Shown one piece after another: positions 12,925-16,516 of a stretch of 37,687 bases of DNA (position 1 is its first letter; every line of letters begins with the position of its first letter). The position numbers and the translations under genes are program-made. The DNA lies in NCBI GenBank assembly GCA_016869765.1, contig VGES01000035.1, positions 1-37,687 of the forward strand. Direction: 5' to 3'. The notes below the pieces were generated by a model. That model was not told where the DNA came from and did no database searches. It saw only the letters and a list, made by a program, of their open reading frames with translations. The stretch comes from Alphaproteobacteria bacterium. GTDB lineage: Bacteria; Pseudomonadota; Alphaproteobacteria; SHVP01.

Positions 12925-14478
12925 TCATGCCGAAAGCGCCGCCGGCGCAGACTTCTCGCGCTTCACCAACAGCTTGTTGAGCGCCGTGACATACGCACGG
13001 ACGCTCGCGACCAGGGTGTCGGTGTCGGCCCCCTGACCGTTGACGGTCTTACCGCCCTCTTCCAACCGCACCGTGACCTCGGCCTGCGCGTCGGTGCCGT
13101 GAGTCACCGCATGGACTTGGAACAACTGCAGCTTCGCATCGTGCGGGAACAACGCCTTGATGGCATTGAACGCTGCGTCTACCGGACCGTCGCCCGAAGC
13201 CGTGGTCGCCTTGGTCTGACCGTTGATCTCGAGCTCCAGGTCCGCCGTTTGCGGGCCGAACGTGCCGGCCATGACACGGAGCGAGACCAGTTTGATGCGG
13301 TCGTTGACGCGCATTACCTGATCGTCGACCAACGCGATGAGGTCTTCGTCGAAGACATCCTTCTTCTTGTCGGCCAGGTCCTTGAACCGACGGAACGCAT
13401 CCTCGACCGCGTTCTCGCCCAGCTCGAAGCCCAGCTCCTTGAGCTTGTTGCGGAAGGCATGCCGGCCGGAGTGCTTGCCGAGGACGAGGTTGGAATTGGT
13501 CAGCCCCACCGATTCGGGCGTCATGATTTCGTAGGTCCGCGCGTGTTTGAGCACGCCGTCCTGGTGGATGCCGGCCTCGTGGGCGAAGGCATTGGCGCCG
13601 ACGATCGCCTTGTTCGGCTGGACCGGAAAGCCCGTGACGGCCGACACCAGGCGCGAGGTCTTGGTGATCGCCTCGGTCTTGATGCCGCTCCAATAGGGCA
13701 TGGCGTCGGCGCGCGTGCGCAGCGCCATCACGATCTCCTCGAGTGCGGCATTGCCGGCGCGTTCACCGAGACCGTTGATCGTGCACTCGACCTGCCGGGC
13801 ACCGGCCGTCACGCCGGCCAACGAATTGGCCACCGCCAAACCGAGGTCGTTGTGGCAGTGCACCGACAGACGGGCGCGATCGATGTTGGGAACGCGGTTG
13901 CGGATCGTCGTGATCAGCGTCGCGTATTCGCTCGGGATCGTGTAGCCGACCGTGTCGGGGATGTTGATCGTGCTCGCGCCGCACTTGATGGCGCTTTCGA
14001 TCGTCCTGCACAGGAAGTCGATGTCGGAACGTGTGCCGTCTTCGCACGACCACTCGACGTCGTCGCACAGGTTGCGCGCCCGCGTAACCGAATCGATGAC
14101 GGCCTGGTGCACGGCTTCCGGCGTCATCTGCAGCTTGTACTTCATGTGCAGCGGGCTGGTCGCGATGAAGGTGTGAATCCGTTTCCGTTTGGCTGGCCGC
14201 AGCGCTTCGGCGGCGCGATCGATGTCCTTGGCGCCGGCGCGAGCCAAGCCACAGATCACAGACTGGCCGATGATCTTGGCAATTTCATGGACGGCCTCGA
14301 AGTCGCCGTTGGAGGCGATCGGAAACCCCGCCTCGATGACGTCGACGCCGAGCGATTGCAGCATCTCGGCGATACGCAATTTTTCTTCGAGGTTCATCGA
14401 CGCCCCCGGCGACTGCTCGCCGTCGCGCATGGTGGTGTCGAAAATGACGACTCGGTCTGACTCGGGGAACTGGCTCAT
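12925..14478 (-). CDS. leuA: 2-isopropylmalate synthase
   Basis: This 517-residue enzyme condenses acetyl-CoA with 2-oxoisovalerate, the first committed step of leucine synthesis. The N-terminal DRE-TIM barrel has '[16 protein letters not shown]' and the metal-binding '[13 protein letters not shown]', followed by '[14 protein letters not shown]' and '[16 protein letters not shown]'. A C-terminal LeuA regulatory domain, for leucine feedback, covers about residues 370-510. The ATG at 14478 is preceded by AAGGA at an 8-nt spacing inside an inverted repeat (see the leader feature). The ilv genes upstream supply the pathway that makes its 2-oxo acid substrate. Confidence 0.97.
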
Positions 14479-14483
14479 GGTGT

Positions 14484-14580
14484 TGGTCCTTCGTGACAGT
14501 GGCAGTGGCGCTCGACTTCCCCCAAACGAGATCGCCTCTCCGGCCGCATCCCGCTCAGGGGCGGCTAAGTCGAAGGACCA
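14484..14580 (-). promoter_or_regulatory. Candidate leuA leader: 10-bp inverted repeat sequestering the Shine-Dalgarno
   Basis: In the minus-strand RNA, TGGTCCTTCG (14580-14571) is perfectly complementary to CGAAGGACCA (14493-14484), with 77 nt between. The second arm contains AAGGA, the only good Shine-Dalgarno for leuA, 8 nt before its ATG. The first arm falls in Val/Leu codons of a possible leader peptide. Pairing would hide the leuA ribosome site, and a ribosome stalled for Leu or Val on the first arm would free it. The geometry is seen directly; the mechanism is inferred. Confidence 0.5.
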
Positions 14581-14647
14581 GGACGCAACGCACCGCGCGC
14601 AACCCGCCGAAGGGCCCGATCGAAGAATCTGGAATCACTACGGCCAC
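14555..14647 (-). CDS. Possible leuA leader peptide rich in Val/Leu codons
   Basis: A small open frame starts at GTG (14647) and ends at TGA (14557-14555), giving 30 codons. Later GTG or TTG starts in the same frame (for example GTG at 14593, 12 codons) are also possible. Its end reads V-R-C-V-L-V-L-R-L-S-R-P, with five Val/Leu codons in the last ten. These codons overlap the first arm of the inverted repeat that can mask the leuA ribosome site. No start has a strong Shine-Dalgarno, so translation is uncertain. Confidence 0.35.
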   Translation of the reverse strand: MAVVIPDSSIGPFGGLRAVRCVLVLRLSRP

Positions 14648-14879
14648 TTGGTTTGCTCGGCGCCCGAGGCGCTACGCTCCGTCAGTCTTTTCGGATCAAC
14701 AGGTTACAATGAAATTCTCGACTAACAACTTGCGAGAAAGCACGTAAACGCGATAACGCAACGACAAACTTTGCCGCGGCTCAAGAATTATTACGCCTTT
14801 TCCACAGCCGTTCGCAACACCTTTCCCGTGCGGTGTTGCCGCAAAGTGACATTTTCCTGGCCCGAACACCCGCCGGCAG
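14581..14879. other. AT-richer intergenic region upstream of leuA
   Basis: Between DUF924 and leuA the sequence becomes visibly AT-richer around 14700-14800 and probably holds the leuA promoter, although no single -35/-10 pair stands out. A hairpin GCAACACC/GGTGTTGC with a 10-nt loop lies at 14814-14839, about 40 nt after the DUF924 stop. It lacks a T run, so it is only a weak terminator candidate. Confidence 0.4.
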
Positions 14880-15455
14880 TCAGAACGACGAGTTCGGTTC
14901 CTTGAGGAACTCCGACTCTTGCGGCGTCGACGCCCGGCCGAGGATGTGGTTGCGGTGGGGAAACCGACCGAAGCGCACGATGATCTCGTGATGGCGTCGC
15001 AGCGACCGCCGCGCCTCGGTATGAACCTCGCCGTCGGGAATGGTGTCGAACAGCGCCAGGGCCCGCTCCTGATCGATCAACGCTTCGGAATGAACGAACG
15101 GCAGGTACATGAACCAGCGCGCGACCGGGGCGGGCCGGCGATCGAATCCGCGGGCCACCGCGTGGACGGCGACGGTGCGCGCCTTCTCGTCGCACGAATA
15201 CATCTTCGCGGTATCGCGAAACATGTTGCGGGGAAACTGATCGAGCAGGATCAGCAACGCCAGGCAACCCTCGGGGTTCGCCAGCCATGCATCGAGTCCG
15301 CCACGTTCGGCGACCTCGACCATGGCGGCGAAACGCTCGCGAATCAACTGGTCGAAAGCGGGGTCCTTCTTGAACCACCGCTCCTGCGGCTCGACCGGCG
15401 CATCGAGCGTGGCCGAGCCGAACCAGAACGTAAGCACCTCGCTAGGCGTCGTCAC
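14880..15455 (-). CDS. DUF924 family protein
   Basis: This 191-residue protein matches the DUF924 family: 'VLTFWFGS' near the N-terminus, 'RWFKKDPAFDQLIRERFAAM', 'GCLALLILLDQFPRNMFRDT', 'FMYLPFVHSEALIDQERALA' and 'RFGRFPHRNHILGRASTPQE'. The fold is a TPR-like helical protein with conserved His/Asp/Arg positions; its biochemical role is not established. The start is taken as GTG at 15455 (V-T-T-P-S-E-V), which places it 17 nt after ilvC; no upstream ATG avoids running through ilvC. It probably rides on the ilv transcript. Confidence 0.8.
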   Translation of the reverse strand: MTTPSEVLTFWFGSATLDAPVEPQERWFKKDPAFDQLIRERFAAMVEVAERGGLDAWLANPEGCLALLILLDQFPRNMFRDTAKMYSCDEKARTVAVHAVARGFDRRPAPVARWFMYLPFVHSEALIDQERALALFDTIPDGEVHTEARRSLRRHHEIIVRFGRFPHRNHILGRASTPQESEFLKEPNSSF

Positions 15456-15472
15456 GGCGTCGCACCGCGGCG

Positions 15473-16516
<1,044 letters not shown>

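Follow-up and report, generated by a model that had tools for sequence, protein, structure and literature searches.

In enterobacteria, a leader peptide with leucine codons upstream of leuA governs the leu operon by transcription attenuation, and in translational attenuators of the Erm/cat type the drug-dependent stalling of a ribosome on a leader peptide frees a sequestered Shine-Dalgarno sequence (SD). The idea that leucine codons themselves pair with the leuA SD is already published for Actinobacteria: the accessible text on the LEU element (Seliverstov et al. 2005, PMC1262725), which covers that group, describes an open reading frame (ORF) with a run of leucine codons whose pairing with the leuA SD encloses a pseudoknot, reports mutations of these codons at odds with classical attenuation of the actinobacterial element, and leans to a protein regulator. 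Within the Alphaproteobacteria, 5′ leaders of biosynthetic genes are treated in the work of Corbino et al. on leader RNAs (2005, PMC1273637) and in that on ilvIH attenuation in Caulobacter (PMC4117421), and no leuA element is mentioned in the accessible parts of either. Similarly, no description of an alphaproteobacterial leuA leader that masks the SD was found in the full-text literature; subscription papers may hold one.

Here, we analyzed the region upstream of leuA in a 37,687-nucleotide stretch of alphaproteobacterial DNA (hereafter, the window). Its leader resembles the enterobacterial attenuator in placing a leucine leader peptide before leuA and in the presumed sensing of leucyl-tRNA by stalling, whereas it has neither terminator nor T-tract and its output is the leuA SD. 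Stalling on a leader peptide that frees a hidden SD would be shared with the Erm/cat systems, but the signal would here be a lack of amino acid, and the control codons themselves contain the anti-SD.

The leuA leader of the window

The region comprises the following features, in which P1, P2 and P3 denote three helices and R1 a covariance model of the element:

12925-14478, minus strand: leuA, 2-isopropylmalate synthase, the putatively regulated gene (517-aa ORF; NCBIfam TIGR00973/PRK00915 above cut-off)
14484-14493, minus strand: 3′ arm of P1, the leuA SD region CGAAGGACCA (perfect 10-bp inverted repeat; partner covaries over 157 rows)
14512-14518, minus strand: 3′ arm of P2, AAGTCGA (inverted repeat; P2 covariation)
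14519-14532, minus strand: 3′ arm of P3, ATCTCGTTTGGGGG, TCAGGGG in most relatives (RNAfold; alignment A1, pair counts)
14548-14561, minus strand: 5′ arm of P3, CCCCTGAGCGGGAT, holding the leader stop TGA at 14557-14555 (RNAfold; alignment A1, pair counts)
14567-14573, minus strand: 5′ arm of P2, TCGACTT (inverted repeat I18; P2 covariation)
14571-14580, minus strand: 5′ arm of P1, the anti-SD TGGTCCTTCG within leucine and valine codons (inverted repeat; own-partner pairing tests)
14518-14584, minus strand: element core found by R1 (E 9.6e-15; the window row is in the training set)
14555-14647, minus strand: candidate leader ORF, 30 aa from a GTG, C-terminus VLVLRLSRP-stop (start uncertain; leucine-rich end kept in relatives)

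The leuA product scored 727.6 bits against TIGR00973 (cut-off 598.7), within the leuA_bact/PRK00915 families, and starts with the ATG at 14478 on the minus strand. The next gene upstream on the same strand (14880-15623) presumably encodes a DUF924-type protein, which it resembles. Between both genes, the leader frame offers only GTG and TTG as start candidates, with no in-frame ATG, and ends in AGC CGC CCC TGA.

On the plus strand, the perfect 10-nt arms of the inverted repeat read TGGTCCTTCG (14484-14493) and CGAAGGACCA (14571-14580), with a spacing of 77 nt. On the leuA strand, the SD GAAGGA lies inside the proximal arm, 8 nt before the ATG, and the distal arm sits in the codons GTC CTG GTC CTT CGA CTT of the leader frame, i.e., in Val-Leu-Val-Leu-Arg-Leu, exactly where an earlier note on this DNA had placed it. 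That note had also held such a match to be improbable by chance, and when the leader was shuffled 5000 times with its dinucleotides kept, only 34 of the shuffles had a perfect inverted repeat of at least 10 bp with a spacer of 60–120 nt; a chance origin is therefore unlikely, but the repeat is not decisive on its own. Folding of the whole leader (RNAfold) was no more stable than that of shuffled sequences (z +1.41, 184 of 200 shuffles being as good), so global folding energy was dropped as support. With regard to known families, the region around the leader matched none in Rfam 15 (the sole match, to RF03006, lay elsewhere, at E 4.7 and far below the gathering score), the leader fitted no T-box, riboswitch or other Rfam covariance model, and an NCBIfam scan of four leader peptides returned no family.

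Leader frame and element among relatives

The relatives found were Alphaproteobacteria, with LeuA identities of 78–82% in genomes of the same family. Upstream of their leuA genes, a leucine-rich frame ends in L-(R/L)-L-x-x-P-stop, written CTTANNNNCCCCTGA, and is followed after about 15–50 nt by the pairing partner of CCCCTGA, TCAGGGG. The element consists of a leucine-rich frame ending in CTTANNNNCCCC-stop and a hairpin that includes the stop codon (P3), with no terminator. Among the 385 genomes of the class, 58 contained the strict pattern, each at one place, versus a single genome for a reversed control pattern, and leuA lay at most 450 nt downstream in all 97 strict-motif loci fetched, some of which had been chosen for holding leuA and others for holding the motif.

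The covariance model R1 was built from 79 aligned rows (alignment A1, i.e., 79 of 81 representatives, with L038 and L078 left out) and, at E ≤ 0.01, found the element in 135 of the 385 genomes of the class. When 398 genomes of the phylum were scanned, 78 had matches at E ≤ 0.001, of which 76 belonged to the class, and the two outside it were weak (E 3e-4 and 5.5e-4); a regular-expression search for the leader in 28 non-alphaproteobacterial leuA loci (L081, L083-L086, L088-L110) found none. An occurrence of the element independent of leuA was considered for the nine of 72 R1 loci with no leuA downstream and rejected, these matches (all E ≥ 2.3e-4) being taken as false positives. These nine, together with L208 and L210, whose leuA lies far behind another ORF, and L242, which was not placed, were left out of the pairing test (12 of 72), as were five of 105 distinct rows with unclear leader or start (L049, L131, L156, L145, L124). 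In L208 and L210, which belong to one family, a small ORF starting MHKINLSEK or MKTINLAEK lies between leader and leuA, about 460 nt apart.

In ten rows (L229, L230, L245, L248, L249, L252, L255, L258, L261, L264), one of which was scanned against NCBIfam, the gene behind the element encodes a LeuA of the TIGR00970/PRK03739 type, a family different from that of the window's enzyme. P1 is kept in several of them, such as L245 (CGGCCTTG/CAAGGCCG) and L264 (CTATCGCT/AGCGATAG), as if the switch had outlasted replacement of the enzyme.

Coding of the leader frame was apparent from the comparison of these sequences. Codon -18 is leucine in 105 of 121 cluster representatives and is written in four ways (CTT 47, CTG 32, CTC 14, CTA 12), codon -12 is leucine in all 121, partly through the selection of rows, and leucine accounts for a fraction of 0.379 of the last codons in frame 0 versus 0.147 and 0.039 when the other two frames are read. 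The stop position holds TGA in 99 representatives, TAG in eight, TAA in four and TGG in five, and most rows have an in-frame ATG some 25–50 codons upstream. Four synonymous leucine codons and interchanging stops at a fixed place are signs of translation; we therefore infer that the frame is a gene that is translated in vivo. As in the actinobacterial LEU element, a leucine-rich frame thus precedes leuA (105/121 representatives; 97/97 strict-motif loci), and, as in classical attenuators, the leader peptide carries control codons for the amino acid that the pathway produces.

The usual stop is lost in L205, L211, L222, L239, L236, L244 and L247 (CCCC-TGG or CCCTGGG), where the leader would run into P3; in L205 the next stop follows four codons later. 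Helices of 10–11 bp between the leucine codons and leuA are still present in three of these variants, L236, L244 and L247.

Covariation of the leader helices

Pairing in P1 was assessed between leader positions -36..-3 and the 22–25 nt before leuA, with each leader's own partner compared with swapped partners. Covariation of both arms, which the earlier note had named as a check, was borne out over 157 leuA/leader rows (z -9.25) and over 121 cluster representatives (z -8.4), and it recurred in the 46 later representatives alone (z -4.9). Earlier sets had given p < 5e-5 (49 loci), z -7.3 (100 rows) and z -7.1 (81 representatives). Against dinucleotide-shuffled own leaders, P1 gained 1.98 kcal/mol (p 1.8e-8) versus 0.01 for the control with the leuA codons. 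In the smaller set, the controls stayed near zero for an upstream leader segment (z -0.4) and the first leuA codons (z 0.1), with z -1.0 for the stretch 28–50 nt ahead of the start codon; with the larger set of rows, the control with the upstream leader segment became slightly positive (z -2.2; by shuffling, -0.58 kcal/mol, p 0.012). When windows were slid along the non-Rhizobiales representatives, the signal peaked at leader -36..-3 versus leuA -33..0 (z -9 to -10); windows that overlap these gave weaker values, and little signal was left farther out. Since the signal is limited to the leucine codons and the SD, the masking helix P1 is kept by covariation, and comparison with the relatives moves SD masking from a suggestive to a strong observation. 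The pairing and the small frame, on whose conservation in relatives the earlier note had made its proposal depend, were both conserved.

Individual loci illustrate this pattern. Near relatives change both sides of P1, as in L247 (CGATTCTTCG/CGAAGAATCG) versus L244 (AGATTCTTCG/CGAAGAATCT) and in L218 versus L221, and long P1 helices occur in rows of unrelated sequence (L087, GATTAGTCCT/AGGACTAATC; also L009, L047, L058 and L077). The leader of Paracoccus denitrificans (L283) likewise has a strong P1 (TCCTTCTTC/GAAGAAGGA).

The base stem between leucine codons and leuA SD, as described for the LEU element, was thus found except in one subgroup, the 22 rows with a Rhizobiales-type hairpin (GGGC...GCCTGGGC). 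These rows gave no P1 signal (z -0.44), and sliding windows revealed neither a consistent own-partner excess nor any other partner; single leader windows scattered (z -3.0 and -2.1, others +2.4 and +2.5), which in 22 related rows we read as noise. Because P1 signal was absent and P2 weak (p 0.025) in these rows, the mechanism is not uniform.

In P2, GACUUANNN pairs with the segment just after P3, as in L119 (GACUUACGCG/CGCGUAAGUC), with a covariation of z -7.3 and, later, z -8.2. In P3, the base CCCCUGA/UCAGGGG is nearly invariant and the upper stem covaries, seven of 13 pairs being changed on both sides; 84.4% of P3 cells were paired, versus 29–56% after sliding by 1–3 columns. Comparison of the aligned sequences thus showed conservation of all three helices. 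A pseudoknot between a leader segment and its own P3 loop, the sole form examined, was unsupported (z +0.69, 118 rows). The motif CUUA-N4-CCCCUGA and its partner UCAGGGG hardly vary within the class (14566-14569 and 14555-14561 in the window), beyond the needs of pairing.

Proposed attenuation mechanism and its alternatives

We consider it probable that the leuA leader is a cis-acting, leucine-responsive translational attenuator. When leucine is plentiful, ribosomes would complete the leader and depart, and the RNA would fold into P3, P2 and P1, hiding the leuA SD. When leucyl-tRNA is scarce, a ribosome would stall on the leucine codons and cover the anti-SD arm, so that P1 and P2 could not form and leuA would be translated. 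With leucine codon -18 in the A site, a ribosome would reach to just short of CCCCTGAG and leave P3 free to form ahead of it. The earlier note had envisaged a response to leucine and valine; the leucine part agrees with control codons that are mainly leucine, and for the same reason valine is unsupported as a co-effector.

The folding model fits stalling on the leucine codons as the event that frees the SD. With the ribosome footprint at codon -18 masked, the SD became cheaper to open in the model, the mean cost dropping from 6.6 to 4.8 kcal/mol and that in the window from 6.1 to 2.5 kcal/mol. The mean fall was 1.78 kcal/mol over 100 rows versus 0.22 with swapped leaders, and it exceeded 1 kcal/mol in only 52 of the 100.

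The attenuation model does not account for how little CUUA-N4-CCCCUGA/UCAGGGG varies. As the conservation of CTTANNNNCCCCTGA/TCAGGGG exceeds pairing needs, the folded leader might instead bind a protein or another ligand that controls leuA translation, the frame being incidental or secondary; a Streptomyces leuA experiment that disagreed with classical attenuation, according to the accessible text of PMC1262725, points the same way. We regard this alternative as unlikely, since leucine is kept through synonymous codons, stops interchange at a fixed place and the anti-SD arm lies on the leucine codons.

Still less probable is control of transcription, either by classical attenuation with leader peptide, antiterminator and intrinsic terminator or by Rho-dependent termination in the leader. 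A hairpin that covers the stop codon of a leucine leader peptide does resemble the pause hairpin of classical attenuators, but the conserved pairing targets the SD. A search of 14000-15000 gave no terminator-like site, in keeping with the earlier note's reading that a T-tract terminator is absent; only 14 of the 157 rows had any T-rich stretch (at least six T among eight letters) on the way from P3 to leuA, at scattered positions, and comparison thus showed no consistent intrinsic terminator with a T-tract before leuA.

A constitutive structure, in which P1 sets the basal level of leuA translation and the frame serves to couple or recruit ribosomes with no leucine sensing, would account for comparative data that speak of structure and coding, not of response, and reinitiation at leaders has been proposed elsewhere (accessible part of PMC4833913). 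This we hold to be very improbable, because the leucine codons are concentrated exactly on the anti-SD arm and the distance from leader stop to leuA start, mostly about 75–200 nt, is too far for simple coupling. An artefact of composition, by which pyrimidine-rich CUU/CUC codons would always resemble an anti-SD to purine-rich SDs (swapped partners already reach about -12 kcal/mol), is effectively refuted for the non-Rhizobiales group by the excess of own partners over swapped ones and over dinucleotide shuffles, which the later rows reproduced; its likelihood is negligible.

The attenuation reading brings the alphaproteobacterial leader close to the LEU element as portrayed in the accessible text of PMC1262725, with which it shares an upstream ORF with a run of leucine codons, a base stem between these codons and the leuA SD and the lack of an obvious terminator. 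The cores differ: the LEU element has an internal pseudoknot, whereas pairing of leader and P3 loop had no support in the alphaproteobacterial set, whose P2 has its downstream partner beyond P3 and whose P3, CCCCUGAG/CUCAGGGG, includes the leader stop. Two of four actinobacterial leuA leaders share CTTCTTAGCTGCC with Bradyrhizobium leaders, and R1 gave two weak matches to the four (E 1.5e-4 and 3.2e-4). The leader is thus best filed, on sequence comparison, as working like the LEU element with a different core, and strict membership is not claimed. Outside the class, the betaproteobacterial leuA on the megaplasmid of Cupriavidus metallidurans CH34 (L286), missed by R1, has a perfect 10-bp helix between leucine leader and SD (TTCCTCGCTA/TAGCGAGGAA, the latter overlapping the SD).

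Far more tentatively, a single ancient leucine-sensing switch, whose leucine codons are the anti-SD, might control leuA across Alphaproteobacteria, Actinobacteria and some Betaproteobacteria and have outlasted the replacement of LeuA by a distant family, with the invariant CUUA-N4-CCCCUGA/UCAGGGG serving an added function, e.g., a programmed pause of ribosome or polymerase; we think this rather doubtful.

If the proposed mechanism is true, leucine synthesis in a large bacterial class would be attenuated at its first committed step through translation, not transcription. The device would be unusually economical, the codons that sense leucine being at the same time the sequence that represses. 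The LEU-element paper of 2005 (PMC1262725), in its accessible text, left undecided whether leaders of this kind sense leucine through a stalled ribosome or are bound by a protein; the alphaproteobacterial set, with its strong covariation and cultured members, makes this question directly testable.
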